DNA from: Anoxynatronum buryatiense
Lineage (GTDB): Bacteria; Bacillota; Clostridia; Peptostreptococcales; Tindalliaceae
Direction: 5' to 3'
DNA: 64,000 bases
Assembly (NCBI RefSeq): GCF_900182905.1
Contig: NZ_FXUF01000010.1
Coordinates: 1 to 64,000 of the forward strand
Below are positions 916 through 55,800 of the stretch, in pieces. Each line of letters opens with the position of its first letter. Positions within the stretch are counted from its first letter, which is position 1. The notes under the pieces were generated by a model that ran no database searches, had not been told where the DNA came from, and was given only the letters and a program-made list of their open reading frames with translations. The translations under genes were made by a program, and so were the position numbers.

Positions 916-984
916 GCGGCACCCAGTGCAGTTTTCTCCCGCCCAGTAAGAACCCGGTTATTTGTAAGGATGAGTGAATCAGTA

Positions 985-1064
985 ACCATGGGCAAACCAA
1001 TCGAAAGGTTGGGACGCAAAGTTTTGGAGTCTGCCGTATCGCCAGATGCAATGATCGTCCAACT
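985..1064 (+). ncRNA. Cyclic-di-GMP-I (GEMM-I) riboswitch aptamer
   Basis: Bases 990-1021 carry the hallmark core of the GEMM-I class: GGGCAAACC, a GAAA tetraloop in a short stem (ATCGAAAGGT), then GGGACGCAAAG. This matches the order and sequence of the Vibrio Vc2-type aptamer (CAAACC, GAAA, GGGACGCAAAG). A second stem (TCTG/CAGA, 1030-1045) follows, then directly an intrinsic terminator at 1065-1092, the arrangement of a transcriptional switch. The downstream gene is a secreted multi-domain surface protein, a typical target of c-di-GMP control in Clostridia. Exact 5' and 3' edges are approximate. Whether ligand switches expression on or off cannot be told without folding. Confidence 0.85.
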
Positions 1065-1092
1065 GCCCCGAGCGGAACTCCGGGCTTTTTTT
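1065..1092 (+). terminator. Intrinsic terminator of the c-di-GMP riboswitch
   Basis: GCCCCGAG and CTCCGGGC form an 8-position stem with one C-C mismatch and a CGGAA loop, followed by seven T. It sits directly after the aptamer, so it is probably the expression platform. Confidence 0.8.
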
Positions 1093-1174
1093 GTGTTCAA
1101 CAGCAGCTTTTAACCGGCGGGAGACGTTTTTGGAGGAAGGAAGTATTGATTTGTTATCAGAAAGGAGGATGCTT

Positions 1175-1231
1175 GTGGCTGATCATCGGCTGATGGAAAG
1201 CATCGAGCAAAGTGAGGAGGAAATTCATTGA
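1175..1231 (+). CDS. Possible 18-residue leader peptide coupled to the surface protein
   Basis: A GTG codon 6 bases after a perfect AGGAGG (1163-1168) opens an 18-codon frame, VADHRLMESIEQSEEEIH. Its TGA (1229-1231) overlaps the TTG start of the next gene (1228-1230) as TTGA. The second ribosome site, GAGGAGG at 1213-1219, lies inside this frame. The geometry suggests translational coupling after the riboswitch. An in-frame ATG at 1169 exists but is too close to the ribosome site. The frame may still be fortuitous; no homologue can be judged by eye. Confidence 0.4.
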   Translation: MADHRLMESIEQSEEEIH

Positions 1232-2754
1232 AAAAACGCATTATTGTAGCAGTCACTGTTTTGATGATGGTGCTTGTGCTGGTGAGCGGCAGTGTCACCG
1301 CCAATGATCTGCAGCTGGCACCGCAACCTTTTGTCAACCTGACTTCGCCAACGGGCGGGGAAAGTTTTCAGGTTGGCAGCAACCAGTCCATTACCTGGCA
1401 GAAATCTTCGGCCGGGGGAACCACGCAAATCTATTTCTCGGCCAATGGCGGCACCAACTGGACTTATGTCACCTCTGTCATGGGTACCAGTTACAACTGG
1501 ACGGTGCCTGACCAGGTGACCAATCAGGGAAGAATTCGGGTGCGGTGGTCACCCAACAATGAGGCCTGGTACACCAACAACAGCGGCAACTTCACCGTTT
1601 TTAAGGCATTGGGTCCTCAGGATTTAAACCTGATTGCCGTGCCGCCGGCTCCCACTGATTTGGCGGCAAGTGCCGTTTCTGCATCATCCATTAACCTTAC
1701 ATGGCAAGACAATGCCACCAATGAAACGGGCTACAAGGTGGAACGCAGGGTGACCAACCAGGCCGGGGGCTTTAATGAAATAGCTGTGCTGGATGCCAAC
1801 ACCACTCAGTTTGCAGATACCGGCCTGAGCGCCATGACCAACTACACTTACCGGGTTAGGGCATATAATGGCATGGGAAATTCTGCCTTTTCAAATGAGG
1901 CGGCGGCCACAACGCAGGCTTTGGGGCTGGCACCTCCGCCGGCCAATGCACCTGCCGCTCCCACTGATCTGATAGCGGAAGCTGCCGACAGCCCGGCCTT
2001 TGCCTTAAGCTGGACAGATAATGCGGGCAATGAGCAGGCCTTTCACATTGAACGCCAGGTGAATGGCGGCAATTTCGATGAGATTGCTGAAGTGGGCGCC
2101 AATGTCACAGTTTATGTGGACGAGAATGTCATGTTCGACACCTTATACCTGTATCGGGTGCGGGCGCGGAATGCCAATGGTTTTTCTGCTTACAGCAATG
2201 AGATGGGTGGCATCATAGAGCAGGTTGCTGACCCTGAAGCTGAGGAGCCAGAGGAACCTGGAGAAATGGAAGAACCCGAAGTACCTGGAGAGCCGGAACC
2301 ACAGCCTGAAACCCCGGGACTGCCGCCTTCAACACCATCGGCACCATCGGGTGAGGGCATTGTGATTCGCTTCTTCATTAATCAGTCTGATTACTTTGTG
2401 AATGATTCACTGGAAACCATGGATACATCCCCCATTATCAGCGGCGGCAGAACCCTTTTGCCCATTCGTTATGTGGCAGAGGCACTGGGTGCCACCGTGG
2501 GCTGGGATGCCGGCGATCAGCGGGTGACCATTCAGTTCAATGAAACCACCATCGAGTTGTGGATTAACCGGAACAGTGCCCGGGTAAACGGTGTGATGCA
2601 GCAGATTGACGCCAATAATGCCCAGGTGACTCCGGTGATTATTCCTCCCGGCAGAACCATGCTTCCCCTGCGGTTTGTTGCTGAGAATCTTGGCAGCAGT
2701 GTTGACTGGGAGCCGGTGGGTCAGGAGGTTATCATCGTTTATCCTGCACCTTAG
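1228..2754 (+). CDS. Secreted surface protein: KNH-like, two Fn3, CuAO-like domain
   Basis: 508 residues starting at TTG with GAGGAGG 8 bases upstream. Residues 1-27 are a signal peptide. About 36-128 match the Ser-Thr-rich Kre9/KNH-type repeat (SPTGGESFQVGS, then ITW and NWTVP). About 140-230 and 242-332 are two fibronectin type III domains, each beginning APTDL. About 335-372 is a Pro/Glu linker. About 377-508 is a C-terminal copper-amine-oxidase-N-like pair with the GRTLLPIRYVAEALGA and GRTMLPLRFVAENLG motifs typical of Clostridia wall proteins. No sortase motif is seen; attachment may be through the last domain. It is controlled by the c-di-GMP riboswitch upstream, so an adhesion or matrix role is likely but inferred. 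Confidence 0.85.
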   Translation: MKKRIIVAVTVLMMVLVLVSGSVTANDLQLAPQPFVNLTSPTGGESFQVGSNQSITWQKSSAGGTTQIYFSANGGTNWTYVTSVMGTSYNWTVPDQVTNQGRIRVRWSPNNEAWYTNNSGNFTVFKALGPQDLNLIAVPPAPTDLAASAVSASSINLTWQDNATNETGYKVERRVTNQAGGFNEIAVLDANTTQFADTGLSAMTNYTYRVRAYNGMGNSAFSNEAAATTQALGLAPPPANAPAAPTDLIAEAADSPAFALSWTDNAGNEQAFHIERQVNGGNFDEIAEVGANVTVYVDENVMFDTLYLYRVRARNANGFSAYSNEMGGIIEQVADPEAEEPEEPGEMEEPEVPGEPEPQPETPGLPPSTPSAPSGEGIVIRFFINQSDYFVNDSLETMDTSPIISGGRTLLPIRYVAEALGATVGWDAGDQRVTIQFNETTIELWINRNSARVNGVMQQIDANNAQVTPVIIPPGRTMLPLRFVAENLGSSVDWEPVGQEVIIVYPAP

Positions 2755-3685: not shown

Positions 3686-4774
3686 TTATTTGATGCTTAT
3701 TGTGCCTATTCCCGTTTCGGCACCGGTTAAATCAGGGGATTTTGGCCTGATTGACGGCATCACCTGGTTTCTGCCGGCATCTTTTGCCTGATACAAAGCC
3801 TGATCGGCACGATTTACCAGCGAGGGGACTGTATCGGCAGACTGAACCACTGCCACGCCTGCACTAACGGTGACTTGTCGATCTTCCACCTGAAGATCTT
3901 GTTCAATGGCGTGGCGAATTTTTTCCCCTACCTGACCGGCCTGAGAAAGGACGGTTTCAGGAAGAATCACCATAAACTCTTCGCCTCCCCAGCGCCCGGT
4001 GGTATCCAGCTTGCGCACGTTGGACTTCATCAGCCAGGCAAACTGCACCAGCACTTCGTCTCCCACAGGATGCCCAAAGGTGTCGTTAATGGTTTTGAAG
4101 TGATCCACATCGATCATGATGATACTGAAGGCATTACCGCTTCGCCGGTAGCGTTCCATTTCCATTTCAAGCACTTCTTCTGTTTTGCTGCGGTTGTAAA
4201 GACCTGTGAGCTTATCGGTAATCATCGCCTGCTCCAGCTGCTGGTGGGTTTCTTCATAGGCCTGGGTGTAGTGCCTGACGACGAGAAACATGGAGCCCAG
4301 AATCACAGGTGTTTGAATGATTCGATCCATAAAAATGGCAAAAGCTGCATGTTGTCCAATGAACTGGGGGTAGCTGTACTCTAGAATCAGCAGCCCCTGA
4401 AAAACAGCCAGCAGCAGTAAAAAGAGCACCACACGACGCCGCCCCCGAAAGATGTACCCGATGAGAACAGCAGCCAGCATCACATACCCCAGGGCATTAT
4501 TGGCACTTCCCCCTGATTCAATGAACCCCATGGGGGTGAAATAGAGGATCAGTATCAGAAAGAAAGCGGTATGTAACCTGGTTTTATGACGGATTTTCCG
4601 ACGAAAGACCAATGCCAGCAACGAGCAGGTCAGCAGCACCAGCCATTTGATGTTCAGATTCATGGGAAGTCCTGCCGCCAGATTGCCGGCCATGCTGATC
4701 ACTGCCACCCCGATACAGTACAGCAGGGTAATGCGGAAAAGTTGGTGATGGATGAACTTTTTCTGTGTCGGCAT
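3686..4774 (-). CDS. Membrane diguanylate cyclase (GGDEF)
   Basis: 362 residues from the ATG at 4774, chosen because GGGAGT lies about 8 bases upstream; a GTG at 4783 is too close. Residues 10-180 contain five or six hydrophobic segments forming an uncharacterised membrane sensor. About 190-345 is a GGDEF domain with an intact active site GGEEF. An RKLD inhibitory I-site lies five residues before it, so the enzyme should make c-di-GMP and be product-inhibited. The N-terminal half includes DKLTGLYNR, the usual domain entry. It is downstream of the chemoreceptor gene and upstream of a lipoprotein. Probable source of ligand for the riboswitch at 985, by inference. Confidence 0.9.
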   Translation of the reverse strand: MPTQKKFIHHQLFRITLLYCIGVAVISMAGNLAAGLPMNLNIKWLVLLTCSLLALVFRRKIRHKTRLHTAFFLILILYFTPMGFIESGGSANNALGYVMLAAVLIGYIFRGRRRVVLFLLLLAVFQGLLILEYSYPQFIGQHAAFAIFMDRIIQTPVILGSMFLVVRHYTQAYEETHQQLEQAMITDKLTGLYNRSKTEEVLEMEMERYRRSGNAFSIIMIDVDHFKTINDTFGHPVGDEVLVQFAWLMKSNVRKLDTTGRWGGEEFMVILPETVLSQAGQVGEKIRHAIEQDLQVEDRQVTVSAGVAVVQSADTVPSLVNRADQALYQAKDAGRNQVMPSIRPKSPDLTGAETGIGTISIK

Positions 4775-4924
4775 GGCACTCACTCCCTGTTTCTAACATC
4801 ACGTAGGCTTTATGCCCTAATTTTGACGAATTATTCATCATGTCATAATAAAAGCTGTCGAGAACGGCAATCCTGTCGAAAGGATGGGTTGGCAAATCAT
4901 GATTTTGGACTTGACTCAAAAAAG

Positions 4925-4984: not shown

Positions 4985-6376
4985 TTATTTTTTATGAAAG
5001 GCACCGCGCATTTCATCAAGGCAGCGGAAGACTTCTTTTGAATATTCATCCATTTTATGCAGGCAGTTTTCAGCTTCTTTCATATTACCCGCCTTGTAGG
5101 CATCGGAGGCTTTTTTCGCCACCTGATGAAGATGCATATGGGGGGCATCCATCCCTTTAAAAGCAGGGTGCTTTTTCAGAGTTTCATCGCCCACACTGTA
5201 ATACCATTTGCCCAGGCGGCAGTCATGGTAGTTGCCAATCATTCGTTCATCCACCTGTTCGTAACCCATCAGCATGTTGTATACCCGCCAGCGCCAAAGA
5301 AGATGGTCTGTCTTGTAGACTTCAATGAGTTCGGTATCGGTGAGGCAGCTGCTGTGGTACAAGAGGGTGAGGCGCAAATCATCCATTTTTTTGCTGGTAT
5401 TGAAAATGGCCCGGCCGGTGTGATCACAGGTGCCTGACAAGAAGTCGGATGCCTGGGAAATCTGGGACATGTTTTCGTTGAGGGTTTCTGTGACGGCAGA
5501 CTGCTCTTGCATGTTGGCGGCCACCTGCATGGTGTGGTCATTCACCAAAGTGACTGAATCACTGATATCGCTGATGGATTTAACGGCTTCTTCAACGATT
5601 TGTTTGCCGCTGTCCAGCTTGGAGGCAGTGAGGGTCATGCTTTTGGACGTGTCATCGATGTGATGCTGTAACTCGGAAATGCTCATTTGAACTTTTCCCA
5701 CCGAGTCTTTGGTGTGCTCGGCCAGTTTGCGCACTTCATCGGCCACCACGGCAAAGCCCCGTCCCTGTTCACCGGCCCGGGCAGCCTCAATAGCGGCGTT
5801 GAGTGCCAACAGATTGGTTTGCTCGGCAATGCCTTTGACGATATCTATGATTTGATCAATATCCTGGGTTTTCAGTTTCACCTGCTGAATTTCACCATCA
5901 ATGCGTTTCACCTCTTCAAAAGACTGGGTGACAAATTCCATGGACTGGTTCATTTGAGCCACACTCTCCTGAACCTTGGCGTTGGTGGCACTGGTCTGGT
6001 CAGAAACCTCACTGGAAATGTTGGCAACTTCTTCAATGGAGGCGCCCAACTCTTCACTGTTGGCCAACATGGTATGAAGAGAGTCGGTTTGCTGGGTGAC
6101 ACTCTGAATCATTTCCCGCACTGAATCCATACGGGTAACTTCCTGCACCAGGCTGTTCACCTGCAATACCGCTGCCTGACGCTCTTTTGAAATTGTTTCC
6201 ATAAAATGGTTCCAGAGATCTGCCAGTTCCTTGGAACTGCAGTCTTCCGGGCTGATTTTGACACACTGACCGCCCGTGGCAGCCTGTATTGCCTCTATCA
6301 TTGCCTTTGTGGATGATGTTGTTGCCGGTACTTTTGTTGTTTTCTCTGCTGCTGGCTTTTTATCCTTGAAAAACAT
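4985..6376 (-). CDS. Soluble methyl-accepting chemotaxis protein with CZB domain
   Basis: 463 residues from the ATG at 6376, which has AGGGGGTG 6 bases upstream; an upstream frame to 6490 lacks a ribosome site. No membrane segment is present, so the receptor is cytoplasmic. About 90-345 is a coiled-coil signalling domain with the conserved hairpin tip [19 protein letters not shown]. About 355-460 is a C-terminal chemoreceptor zinc-binding (CZB) domain with the His/Cys pattern [24 protein letters not shown] domains bind zinc and can sense hypochlorous acid or redox state. Its partners (CheA/CheW) are not in the window. It is transcribed alone, with its own terminator. Confidence 0.92.
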
Positions 6377-6640
6377 CTCAGACACCCCCTTTATACTTGT
6401 ACATTTGGCATCTTGCCGATGATGATGCGTATGCCAGAATGTCATTTTATGGAATTGATAATTGTTCTTGTTAGTTATTCCTAACTTCATTTATAAAATC
6501 ATTCTATCTTGAAATGATCATATTGGCAAGGGTTGTTTTGGTAATTGAATACTTAATTCGTTGACGGAGAAGAAAATAATCCAAATGACCTATTTTCGAC
6601 ATATTTATGAGATGTCTTGGAGCAGGTTTTTTAGCCACAT

Positions 6641-21268: not shown

Positions 21269-22399
21269 TTACGCTTCATCTGCAACCTCACGCAGTACCC
21301 TTTTGAAAGCCTCCTTCTCCACTTCAAAAGCGCCCACCACATCGGGGGCAAAGTGTTTTCCTTTTTGCTGTATAATCATTTTCATGGCCTGTTCCATCGT
21401 CCAGGTTTCTTTATAGACTCTTGGTGCCGTCACTGCATCAAACACATCCGCCAATGCCATTAACTGAGCTGCAAGAGGAATTTTGTCTCCCTTAAGTCCC
21501 AGAGGATACCCAGTACCATCCCACTTCTCATGATGAAAACGAGCAATGGTTTCAGCTTCTTCCAGAAATAGAAGTGCTTGTGGTTTAAACTGGTCGCTGA
21601 TGACAGAGTTGATTTCCACCACTTGTCTGATGGCGTTTCGAATGGCATCACCTCCGATGGCCGAGTGTTTCTTCATGATTTCAAATTCTTCAGCCGTCAG
21701 TTTACCTGGCTTTAAAAGAATATGGTCAGGAATGCCAATTTTTCCAATGTCATGTAACGGCGCTGCTTTAACCATTCTGGCAATATAGTTGTCGTTGAGT
21801 ACTTCCTGATATTTGAAAATTTCTTTCATGCAATTGGCTAAAATCTCCACATACTTTTGTGTTCGCGTGATATGGTGAGCTGTATCAACATCCCGGGTTT
21901 CAGCCAGTTGGGAAATCATGCTGAGTGTAATATCCTGAATGATTACATTTTCCCGAATACGACGGGCAACTTCCATCTCCAGCCATTCTTTCTGGCTTTT
22001 CAATTGATCTCTTGCCTGTTTTAATTCAAGATGCACATTCACCCGTTTTAATACGATGGACGATATGAATGGTTTTATGATGTAATCAACCGCACCCATT
22101 TGAAATCCCCGCTCTTCGTCGATGCTGCCGTCAAGGCCAGAGATGAAAATAACAGGAATTTCTTTATGAACAGGATTTTTCTTAAGACGCTGTAACGTTT
22201 CATAGCCGTCCATTTCCGGCATCATAATATCAAGGAGAATCAGGTCGGGAACAGGATCTATTGAGGCGTTTTTCAATGCTGACAAGCCACTTTTACATGC
22301 ACGGACATGATAGGCAGGGCTTAGTAGCTCATTTAAAATGGTAAGATTGTTGGGATTGTCATCCACAATAAGAATTGTTGGTTTCTTCAGTTCTGACAC
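21269..22399 (-). CDS. Response regulator with HD-GYP phosphodiesterase output
   Basis: 376 residues from a GTG start. Residues 8-125 form a receiver domain (ILIVDDNPNN, phospho-Asp in LILLDIMMPEMDG, Lys in VDYIIKPF). After a coiled linker, about 165-370 is an HD-GYP domain with HDIGKIGIPDHILLKPGKL and HHEKWDGTGYPLGLKGD, keeping the HD and GYP ligands needed to hydrolyse c-di-GMP. It would lower c-di-GMP when phosphorylated or dephosphorylated. Transcribed between two hybrid kinases. A good TATAAT lies on the minus strand at 22458-22453, about 55 bases before the start. Confidence 0.93.
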   Translation of the reverse strand: MSELKKPTILIVDDNPNNLTILNELLSPAYHVRACKSGLSALKNASIDPVPDLILLDIMMPEMDGYETLQRLKKNPVHKEIPVIFISGLDGSIDEERGFQMGAVDYIIKPFISSIVLKRVNVHLELKQARDQLKSQKEWLEMEVARRIRENVIIQDITLSMISQLAETRDVDTAHHITRTQKYVEILANCMKEIFKYQEVLNDNYIARMVKAAPLHDIGKIGIPDHILLKPGKLTAEEFEIMKKHSAIGGDAIRNAIRQVVEINSVISDQFKPQALLFLEEAETIARFHHEKWDGTGYPLGLKGDKIPLAAQLMALADVFDAVTAPRVYKETWTMEQAMKMIIQQKGKHFAPDVVGAFEVEKEAFKRVLREVADEA

Positions 22400-41377: not shown

Positions 41378-42135
41378 GCCTTTCCTCCACCCTGGGAAGC
41401 AATGAGTTTTTCCCGGTAAATTTCGTTAACTGTTTCTTTCTGTGCTTCAATGAGGGCCGTGATGCCTTCCCGCGCCAGGGCAATCATGGTGTTCATTTCT
41501 TCAAGACTGAAAGTGGCTTCTTCGCCGGAACCCTGAATTTCCACCACTTGTTCATGCTCGGTCATCACCATGTTCATATCGACTGAAGCGCCGGAATCTT
41601 CTTCATAACACAGGTCAAGGAGGGGCACCCCTTCCACGATCCCCACACTGACAGCTGCCAGGTAGTGGGTCACAGGGATTTCTTTGATTTGCCTGGCATC
41701 CCGCAATTTAATCAGTGCCTCCATTAACGCCACGAAAGCGCCGGTGATGGAAGCGGTGCGGGTGCCGCCATCAGCCTGAATCACGTCACAGTCGATCCAG
41801 ATGGTGCGTTCACCCAGCTGGCTGAGGTCCACCACTGAACGGAGTGCACGTCCAATGAGACGCTGGATTTCCTGGGTACGGCCCTCCACCTTGCCACGGG
41901 TGGATTCTCTTACCTTTCGGGTATGGGTGGCACTGGGAAGCATGGCGTATTCGGCGGTAATCCAGCCTTTTCCGCTGCCCTTGAGAAAAGAGGGGACTTT
42001 TTCTTCCACAAAAGCAGTGCAAATGACTTTTGTATTGCCCATTTCTGTCAGTACTGATCCCATGGCGTGGGAGGTGAAGTTGCGGGTAAAGGTGACCGGC
42101 CGCAGTTGATTCTCTTTTCTTCCGTCTATTCGCAT
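41374..42135 (-). CDS. rph: Ribonuclease PH
   Basis: 253 residues; GAGGCG before ATG. Begins [14 protein letters not shown] and has [54 protein letters not shown] and [16 protein letters not shown]. These are the phosphate and RNA-binding motifs of the PDX fold. It trims tRNA 3' tails by phosphorolysis. In Firmicutes it is commonly followed by rdgB, as here. Slightly downstream of a UPF0316 gene. Confidence 0.97.
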
Positions 42136-42176
42136 CTATGTCGCCTCGTTTCAATTTGATAGGATTTGTGTTGGCA

Positions 42177-42698
42177 TTATTTGCGTTTCAGGCGGCTGAA
42201 AAATCCGCCCCTGATGGCTCGGGTGTCCATAACGGTGACAAAGGCCTTTTGATCGTGTTCGTCCAGCAGCTGGTTCAGCCGGCCCAGCTGTTTTCGCTGG
42301 ATGGTGACATTGAGCAAGTGATTGATACCGGTGCGGCCGTAGCCTTCCACCACGGTAACCCCATAGCCTTCATCCCGCAGGATGGTCACCAGTTCTTCTG
42401 CTTTTTTATAACTGATCACCTGAACCACCAAACTGCCCAGGGCCATTTTTTCTTCTATCATGATGCCCACATAGTTTCCGGTGGCAAAGCCGGAGGCGTA
42501 CATAATAACGTTAATGGGATCATCAAGATTGCTGAGTACCGATCCCACTGCCAGAATCCAAATACTGACTTCAAAAAAACCGATGACTGCCGCGTGGATC
42601 CGCTTTCCTTTCACCACCATGATCATACGAATGGTGGCCAGACTCACATCAGATACCTTTGCCATAAAGATTAACAGATAGCCGATCAGGCCTTCCAC
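42177..42698 (-). CDS. UPF0316 membrane protein (DUF5698-DUF2179)
   Basis: 173 residues from a GTG start at 42698, fixed by AGGAAGGAG 7 bases upstream; the frame extends further but without a ribosome site. Three hydrophobic segments (about 3-70) include YLLIFMAKVSDVSLATIRMI and FFEVSIWILAVGSVLSNL, the DUF5698 part. About 105-170 is a soluble DUF2179 domain with DEGYGVTVVEGYGRTG. Members are common in Firmicutes (YebE type); the DUF2179 domain is thought to bind small ligands such as nucleotides. Role unknown. Confidence 0.85.
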   Translation of the reverse strand: MEGLIGYLLIFMAKVSDVSLATIRMIMVVKGKRIHAAVIGFFEVSIWILAVGSVLSNLDDPINVIMYASGFATGNYVGIMIEEKMALGSLVVQVISYKKAEELVTILRDEGYGVTVVEGYGRTGINHLLNVTIQRKQLGRLNQLLDEHDQKAFVTVMDTRAIRGGFFSRLKRK

Positions 42699-54403: not shown

Positions 54404-55726
54404 CTATTTGCTGACACCGTCTCTGTAGCGGTTGATTCGGTTCCAGTATGTTTCATCTGCTTCCATATTGTAGCGGGGATGCGTTCGCATCATTTCCAGC
54501 AACTCATTGAGGCGCTGTTCCCGGTTGGTCATTTTATTCAGGTACATGGCATCATCCGCTTCCTTCACCAGCTGAGACCGTTTCTTTCCGGGAGAGGTTT
54601 TACAGCTGGCTCCCAGGGAAAGGCTGGTGAGGCACCCTTTTTTCATCCCTTCCTCACATTTACGTTTGATGCGACGCATGATTTTCCGGGCATCTGCTTC
54701 GGTAGTTTGAGGCAGCAGCACCGTAAACTCATCACCGCCGGTGCGGCAAATAATATCTTCTTCCCGACAGCTGTCCTTCAAAATATCGGCAATTCTGACG
54801 GCCACTTTATCGCCTTCCAGGTGTCCCAGCACATCATTCACCAGTTTCAGACCGTCGATATCGCACAAGATCAGGCTCAGGGGATATTGGCGTTCGGTAT
54901 CCAGCCTGTCAATTTCTTCTTCAAAAAAATCCCGGTTATAAAGCCCGGTGAGCCGGTCTCGAAAACGAAGAAAGACGAGTTCTTCTTCTGTCCGCTTTCG
55001 CTGGGTGATGTCCCGGACAATGGCCATTACTTCATTTTCATTGCTGGCTATGATGCGCATCTCGAAATACACATCTTTCTCATTGAGGAGAAGCCTGTAT
55101 TCGATGGTTTGCATTTCATCAGTTTCCAATGCTGTGTGAATGGCTGTCAGAATCGTCTCTGCCAGGGCCTCCTGAAAAACATCATGTAACCGGCGGCCTT
55201 TCTGCCATTCAGCATCTTTAATGAGGAGGGATGTGTCAGAGGTGAACATCTCCAGATGCACCCCCTCGTGATTTAAAAAAATCAGGATGTCAGGCATTAC
55301 CTGGATCATGGAGCGGAATCGTTTTTCAGTTTTTCTCAACTGTCGTTTCATCTCAGACTTGTACAGGGCCAGCTCTATGTTGATGTATAACTCTTTTTCA
55401 TTGAAGGGTTTCACCAGAAAGCCACTGGGCTCTGCCGCCAGAACACGTGCCATCATATCTTCATTCAGCAGCCCCGATACAAACAGCACCGGTATTTCAA
55501 GGGTGTTCTGCACCTGGCCGGCTGCCCAGATCCCGTCCTTTTCACCTTTTAACGTGATGTCCATCAACACCAGATCCGGTTTTCGTTTCATGATCATCGG
55601 CATGGCTTCTTCCACAGAGTGAGCCACTCCCACGACACGATAGCCCCGCTGAAGCAGTGCGTCTTTTGTGATCTGCACGTCCAGGGGACTGTCTTCCACG
55701 ATGAAAATTTTTCCTGACCGGGCCAT
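54404..55726 (-). CDS. Response regulator diguanylate cyclase REC-PAS-GGDEF
   Basis: 440 residues from the ATG at 55726, with GGGGGTG about 7 bases upstream. Receiver (about 5-120; IFIVEDSPLD, phospho-Asp in LVLMDITLKG, LVKPFNE). A PAS domain (about 135-260) is followed by a GGDEF domain (about 268-430) with an intact active site GGDEF and an REED I-site five residues before it. The linker has RDRLTGLYNRDFFEE. Makes c-di-GMP, probably under control of a histidine kinase outside or inside this window. An extended -10-like TGGTATGAT lies at 55787-55779. Single gene. Confidence 0.94.
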   Translation of the reverse strand: MARSGKIFIVEDSPLDVQITKDALLQRGYRVVGVAHSVEEAMPMIMKRKPDLVLMDITLKGEKDGIWAAGQVQNTLEIPVLFVSGLLNEDMMARVLAAEPSGFLVKPFNEKELYINIELALYKSEMKRQLRKTEKRFRSMIQVMPDILIFLNHEGVHLEMFTSDTSLLIKDAEWQKGRRLHDVFQEALAETILTAIHTALETDEMQTIEYRLLLNEKDVYFEMRIIASNENEVMAIVRDITQRKRTEEELVFLRFRDRLTGLYNRDFFEEEIDRLDTERQYPLSLILCDIDGLKLVNDVLGHLEGDKVAVRIADILKDSCREEDIICRTGGDEFTVLLPQTTEADARKIMRRIKRKCEEGMKKGCLTSLSLGASCKTSPGKKRSQLVKEADDAMYLNKMTNREQRLNELLEMMRTHPRYNMEADETYWNRINRYRDGVSK

Positions 55727-55800
55727 ATTTAACACCCCCGCTCCACAAGGCTTTGCGTTTACCCTAAATGTTTGATCTATCATACCATACTTGTATCCTT

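Follow-up and report, generated by a model that had tools for sequence, protein, structure and literature searches.

A c-di-GMP-I riboswitch whose 3' end is shared with an intrinsic terminator, a predicted transcriptional ON switch of a probably secreted Fn3/Cu_amine_oxidN1 protein in Anoxynatronum buryatiense

The first 64,000 nucleotides of contig C10 of the Anoxynatronum buryatiense genome (4.16 Mb, 47 contigs; this stretch is hereafter called the window) carry a c-di-GMP-I aptamer that overlaps an intrinsic terminator ahead of a gene for a secreted-type protein, and a riboswitch also precedes a related gene in a second species. We consider it likely, with a probability of roughly 0.73, that the element is a class I c-di-GMP riboswitch through which the ligand turns on transcription of the gene for that protein; ligand binding, the direction of control and a role in attachment are what we infer from this arrangement. 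The features concerned are as follows.

981 to 1070, forward strand: c-di-GMP-I (GEMM-I) aptamer found by cmscan with RF01051, with G991, a GAAA loop at 1003-1006 and the conserved C1066/C1067
1065 to 1092, forward strand: intrinsic terminator found by folding, with a 7-pair stem containing one C.C mismatch (1065-1085) and seven T's (1086-1092)
1175 to 1231, forward strand: possible 18-codon leader ORF read from the sequence, starting with GTG, with a strong Shine-Dalgarno sequence AAAGGAGG at 1161-1168
1228 to 2754, forward strand: gene for the probably secreted protein of 508 residues, with a signal peptide (by eye), Kre9_KNH/Big_7, two fn3 domains, an acidic Pro-rich linker and Cu_amine_oxidN1 (Pfam)
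3686 to 4783, reverse strand: GGDEF protein (Pfam GGDEF, 159.1 bits), context
21269 to 22399, reverse strand: receiver-HD_5 protein of the HD-GYP type (Pfam HD_5, 100.6 bits), context
54404 to 55783, reverse strand: receiver-PAS-GGDEF protein (Pfam GGDEF, 124.2 bits), context

The sequence-only reading had called a GEMM-I core from the letters and proposed a covariance search with RF01051, which bears it out: cmscan, run over all 64 kb, places an RF01051 match at 981-1070 of the forward strand, scoring 56.8 bits (cut-off 35) and covering 87 of 87 model positions. Five tRNAs are the only other Rfam matches at gathering score in the window, and beside the RF01051 match cmscan omitted two weaker ones to families belonging to its clan. 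The element is therefore confirmed as an RF01051 match, and hence as a member of the c-di-GMP-I class with c-di-GMP as its presumptive ligand. Its P2 and P3 helices contain standard pairs throughout, with zero non-standard pairs marked in the cmscan alignment, and the ligand-contact core is kept, GGGCAAACC, GGGACGCAAAG and CUGCC aligning to the RF01051 consensus with G as the first-position residue. We take the ligand-contact positions to be G20 (the G before GC), A47 (the A after GACGC) and C92 (the C near the 3' end). Position 20 guides the choice between c-di-GMP and cGAMP; G991, the residue before the conserved GC, presumably occupies it and fits a c-di-GMP sensor, and a cGAMP-type aptamer is disfavoured by the same residue. 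The GNRA loop of c-di-GMP-I aptamers docks into a receptor in P3; in the window the tetraloop-receptor side reads UCUGCC in the cmscan alignment, compared with the consensus CUAAg, and this degenerate-looking receptor of the GAAA loop may lower ligand affinity.

A terminator following the aptamer had also been proposed from the letters, and folding finds one, placed so that it overlaps the aptamer and does not merely lie downstream of it. A consensus terminator scan detected no terminator downstream of the window aptamer, probably because of the single C.C mismatch, and direct folding revealed the stem, with the stem-loop 1065-1085 at -10.6 kcal/mol. Its 5' arm shares the last 6 positions of the aptamer, and the segment 1065-1068 takes in C1066 and C1067, two conserved C's among which the ligand-pairing C lies. 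When these two residues are blocked in the folding calculation, the terminator, at -10.6 kcal/mol when free, retains -3.3 kcal/mol. As far as base pairing goes, it can form together with the P2/P3 helices (-30.1 kcal/mol), so that mutual exclusion depends on the ligand-contact C's. In the apo state, a GGGCA:UGCCC pairing also blocks the terminator; at -29.3 kcal/mol compared with -31.1 kcal/mol for the terminator fold it is only 1.8 kcal/mol less stable, and basal read-through may therefore be sizeable. As the transcript grows, this pairing gives the most stable fold for 3' ends from 1068 to 1083; among the lengths tried the terminator fold becomes the most stable only from nucleotide 1085, so that the ligand would need to act within about 18 nucleotides past the last conserved C.

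That the terminator is partly built from aptamer sequence suggests an ON direction. Without ligand, GCCC at the 3' end of the aptamer (1065-1068) would pair with GGGC (1082-1085) to form the terminator, and transcription would stop short of the gene. With c-di-GMP bound to the nascent aptamer, C1066 and C1067 would be held in the ligand pocket, the lower stem of the terminator would be lost, and the polymerase would read through into the KNH-like/Fn3/Cu_amine_oxidN1 gene. At high c-di-GMP the cell would then secrete more of this envelope or matrix protein, in parallel with the response of the genome's other c-di-GMP-responsive envelope genes.

The regulated gene starts with a TTG at 1228, preceded by GAGGAGG at 1214-1220. 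Pfam searches of 1228-2751 give 101.8 bits for Cu_amine_oxidN1 and 66.9 bits for fn3 over two stretches, while Kre9_KNH (26.1 bits, cut-off 24.6) and Big_7 (25.1 bits, cut-off 24.1) match overlapping N-terminal stretches barely above their cut-offs, which makes the label "KNH" marginal; with that reservation, the domains and signal peptide listed in the sequence-only reading (KNH-like, two Fn3, CuAO-like) are right. No Pfam match to a catalytic amine oxidase domain was found in the 508-residue protein, and since only the N-terminal domain Cu_amine_oxidN1 was matched, we do not call it an amine oxidase. It also has no Pfam match to an SLH domain, and neither an LPXTG sorting signal nor a C-terminal membrane segment is seen by eye, the C terminus being ...VIIVYPAP. 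With a signal peptide and no anchor seen, the protein is probably secreted and may also be retained at the surface. The earlier description of "one defined surface factor" is in line with the signal peptide but exceeds the data on the anchor and on the word "one," because this riboswitch is one of ten in the genome, which precede several different genes. A structure model built from two sequences had low confidence (mean pLDDT 47, pTM 0.28) and was set aside. In the leader, the TGA of the short ORF at 1175-1231 overlaps the TTG of the main gene, which suggests translational coupling; the signals of this candidate leader peptide are plausible, no counterpart is seen by eye in the related leader described below, and we keep it as a possibility.

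Relatives of the whole protein were sought in seven genomes of the family, the window genome included, at an E value of at most 1e-40, and close relatives were found in two of the seven, namely, the window genome and the same-genus genome G002; a second other genome of the genus (75% complete) has no match at this threshold. The G002 relative (best hits of 55% and 66% identity, 61% in a pairwise alignment) has one fn3 domain fewer than the window gene and is led by an RF01051 match of 66.3 bits at C61:1540-1629. The 5' arm of its terminator likewise begins inside the aptamer, with a stem sequence that differs from that of the window and the same layout. In G002 the arm further draws in nucleotides aligned with P3a, and there the bound aptamer and the terminator should therefore exclude each other.

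The same layout was surveyed more widely. RF01051 sites in 60 genomes, the window genome included and under stricter filters, sum to 175. The sample analyzed comprised 124 sites (the ten sites of the window genome, the top-scoring one from each of 29 relatives and additional listed sites, with a few unlisted tandem partners) and is a nonexhaustive convenience sample in which sites of one genome are not independent. The motif search gave 141 matches, 17 of which were dropped as repeats or false, a step that also left out a real second site of L134; the fetched loci L104, L105 and L147 had no motif match. A site was counted as overlapping when a short hairpin with at least 7 pairs, an energy of at most -10 kcal/mol and a T-rich tail had an arm starting at least 5 nucleotides before the aptamer end. 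This layout was found in 15 of the 124 sites, whereas 40 rounds of dinucleotide shuffling of the downstream sequence gave 0.5 on average and never more than 2; a looser rule (at least 6 pairs) at -10 kcal/mol again gave 15 of 124, with a shuffled mean of 0.6 and a maximum of 4 in 30 rounds. Under this looser rule, thresholds from -6 to -13 kcal/mol in steps of one returned 23, 19, 17, 16, 15, 14, 13 and 11 of the 124 sites, compared with shuffled means of 3.7, 2.7, 2.0, 1.2, 0.6, 0.4, 0.3 and 0.2 (30 rounds), and the layout thus exceeds chance at every threshold tried.

The window site lies at the edge of this class. Its hairpin (-10.6 kcal/mol) is the weakest of the 15, counted down to the -10 threshold and lost from -11 kcal/mol, and its overlap is the shallowest, the arm beginning 7 nucleotides ahead of the aptamer end compared with 10 or 11 in the 13 other members listed. 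The strict rule was written after the first genes were known, and was therefore not blind; an earlier looser rule had flagged 21 sites. Five of its six near-misses were scanned, giving a PAS/HisKA sensor kinase (L088), Cu_amine_oxidN1 (L115 and L132), GH113 (L067) and no match (L103). The Cu_amine_oxidN1 genes at L115 (G013:C77) and L132 (G024:C11) are led by c-di-GMP-I elements with weaker overlapping hairpins of -9.9 and -8.2 kcal/mol. Across the sample, the residue before the conserved GC is A, not G, in 21 of the 124 sites (20 of the 109 others and 1 of the 15 overlap-layout sites) and T or C in two; the A-type sites include L001 (C18:72692), L003 (C6:199315) and many sites of relatives.

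To assign first genes we used a same-strand ORF rule, some proteins being cut at the locus end; L050 and L151 yielded no gene, and L154 and L155 were excluded from the Pfam count for unreliable gene picks. The first genes of the 15 overlap sites, by Pfam, include SpaA (3), Cna_B (2), a sortase, a prepilin peptidase, a PilB-type ATPase (T2SSE with MshEN), a polysaccharide-synthesis protein, an SdrD_B protein and two Cu_amine_oxidN1 proteins (window and G002), together with an AAA protein (L122) that lies 1.4 kb from its riboswitch and is probably not its target, and two proteins with no Pfam family (L121, with an LPxTG motif, and L002, with LPQTGE by eye). Most of them encode pilin-like proteins, sortases, or parts of type IV pilus or polysaccharide systems, and GGDEF, HD_5 and MCPsignal are absent among the 25 of 27 families listed for them. 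For the 91 other first genes, 25 of 85 families are listed, so that a lone pilin domain could be hidden; those listed include Transglut_core (15), GGDEF (8), HD_5 (8), HAMP (7), Cu_amine_oxidN1 (7), MCPsignal (4) and SLH (3). Several targets speak against a clean split: L129, among these other sites, has an LPxTG motif, L133 is type IV pilin-like by eye, and the transglutaminase-like, NlpC/P60 and SLH targets outside the overlap class are envelope genes too. Cu_amine_oxidN1 occurs in 9 of the 106 sampled targets, as a raw count. It is a tentative generalization, to which we give somewhat less than even odds, that the platform divides the c-di-GMP-I switches of the order, with aptamer-strand terminators (ON) serving filaments and envelope and the others serving chemotaxis, flagella and c-di-GMP turnover, that the platform alone would predict the target class, and that noncatalytic Cu_amine_oxidN1 proteins would form a recurrent, unrecognized arm of the c-di-GMP regulon.

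These observations bear on the direction of control at the window site. In a transcriptional OFF switch, GGGCA:UGCCC would serve as the antiterminator without ligand, and binding would break it and let the terminator form. The stability of this pairing in transcripts with 3' ends from 1068 to 1083 and its closeness to the terminator fold at full length (1.8 kcal/mol) are in line with such a scheme, as is the description in PMC6366702 of the functional class I switches of C. difficile as OFF switches. We nevertheless regard it as improbable, because ligand binding would tie up C's required for the terminator, leaving -3.3 kcal/mol when both are blocked, because the P3a-aligned nucleotides used by the G002 arm should make bound aptamer and terminator exclusive, and because the first genes of the overlap class are mostly filament and envelope genes. 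It is similarly unlikely that the element is a decayed or nonresponsive switch, that is, a recognizable aptamer binding weakly through its degenerate tetraloop receptor ahead of a constitutive or leaky gene: it has the lowest score of the genome's ten, UCUGCC in place of CUAAg and the weakest terminator of the 15, and PMC6366702 reports function for only 11 of the 16 such switches in C. difficile 630, but no nonstandard pair is marked, the conserved core is unbroken, and a second species has the same layout although its stem sequence differs.

A further alternative leaves the ON mechanism in place and concerns only what it controls. The regulated protein may have no role in attachment and serve, for example, in wall processing or substrate binding, a reading to which we give about one chance in three and under which the link to motility and attachment drawn in the sequence-only reading would be wrong. 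No anchor or known adhesin domain is seen in the protein, and Cu_amine_oxidN1 is widespread in the order (34 hits in the window genome; present in 49 of the 60 genomes searched, that genome included); against this, most targets that share the layout belong to the envelope or to filaments.

The two GGDEF genes and the HD-GYP-type gene that the sequence-only reading placed in the window are present according to Pfam. Its proposal that these local genes make and break the ligand is weak, because the genome has 36 GGDEF hits (the weakest partial) and 14 HD_5 hits spread throughout, so that proximity within 64 kb carries little weight, and we rejected ligand supply by neighboring genes as evidence. 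Beside the GGDEF gene lies a chemoreceptor gene (MCPsignal; 4985-6490, reverse strand) with a C-terminal zinc-binding CZB domain. Elsewhere in the genome, locus L012 (G000 C16:37198-51290) holds three c-di-GMP-I riboswitches within about 5 kb, all on the reverse strand (C16:47198-47290, 42139-42214 and 42028-42103): an overlap-layout switch precedes an LPXTG-type pilin-like gene followed by a sortase-like gene (both by eye), and a tandem pair of switches on C16 lies ahead of a transglutaminase-like secreted protein, an arrangement already published (PMC12452182). At L015 (C4:144674), a terminator-like stem downstream, GCGACCCG...CGGGTCGC, lies clear of the aptamer, whose 3' strand it could pair with in an OFF-switch-like manner; the next ORF is short and resembles an HD-GYP N terminus by eye. 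L016 contains CRISPR-like arrays at 5447-6277, with units of 66 to 67 bases carrying GTTTCAATCCACGC, just downstream of an HD-GYP gene led by the riboswitch at C20:46823.

Comparable systems are known. The pilM GEMM-I riboswitch of Geobacter metallireducens is described in PMC9262584 as an ON switch whose terminator takes up the ligand-pairing C75, making aptamer and terminator mutually exclusive. The window terminator arm likewise includes the C's with the ligand-pairing C, and the ON direction is predicted by analogy of layout; unlike the window element, whose G991 fits c-di-GMP, pilM senses cGAMP and is tied to pili in that text. Bc2 of Bacillus thuringiensis, a class I ON switch of the collagen adhesion protein gene cap (PMC4933901), resembles the window by description in its aptamer class, its ON control of transcription (predicted for the window) and its exported envelope target, whereas the window protein belongs to another family and the Bc2 target is described there as wall anchored. 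Cd1 of flgB in Clostridioides difficile shares the aptamer class with the window and is an OFF switch in which the terminator can stand next to the aptamer and competes with a separate antiterminator, according to PMC9262584 and PMC6366702. Closer to the window, the overlap layout is shared by switches of pilin-like targets at L064, L069, L074, L108, L111 and L121 of the same order and L002 of the same genome; these targets have Cna_B/SpaA (L064, L069), LPxTG (L074, L108, L111, L121) or LPQTGE by eye (L002), which the window protein lacks.

Class I ON switches of adhesion proteins and terminator-overlap ON platforms are thus already known, and the window holds a genuine, ordinary further example; a search of the open-licence literature found no report linking Cu_amine_oxidN1 to c-di-GMP riboswitches. 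For A. buryatiense, the element would add a probably secreted protein to the c-di-GMP regulon and gives its control a predicted direction (ON). If the pattern of targets holds in an unbiased sample, the sign of c-di-GMP-I regulation would be readable from sequence in clostridia-like genomes.
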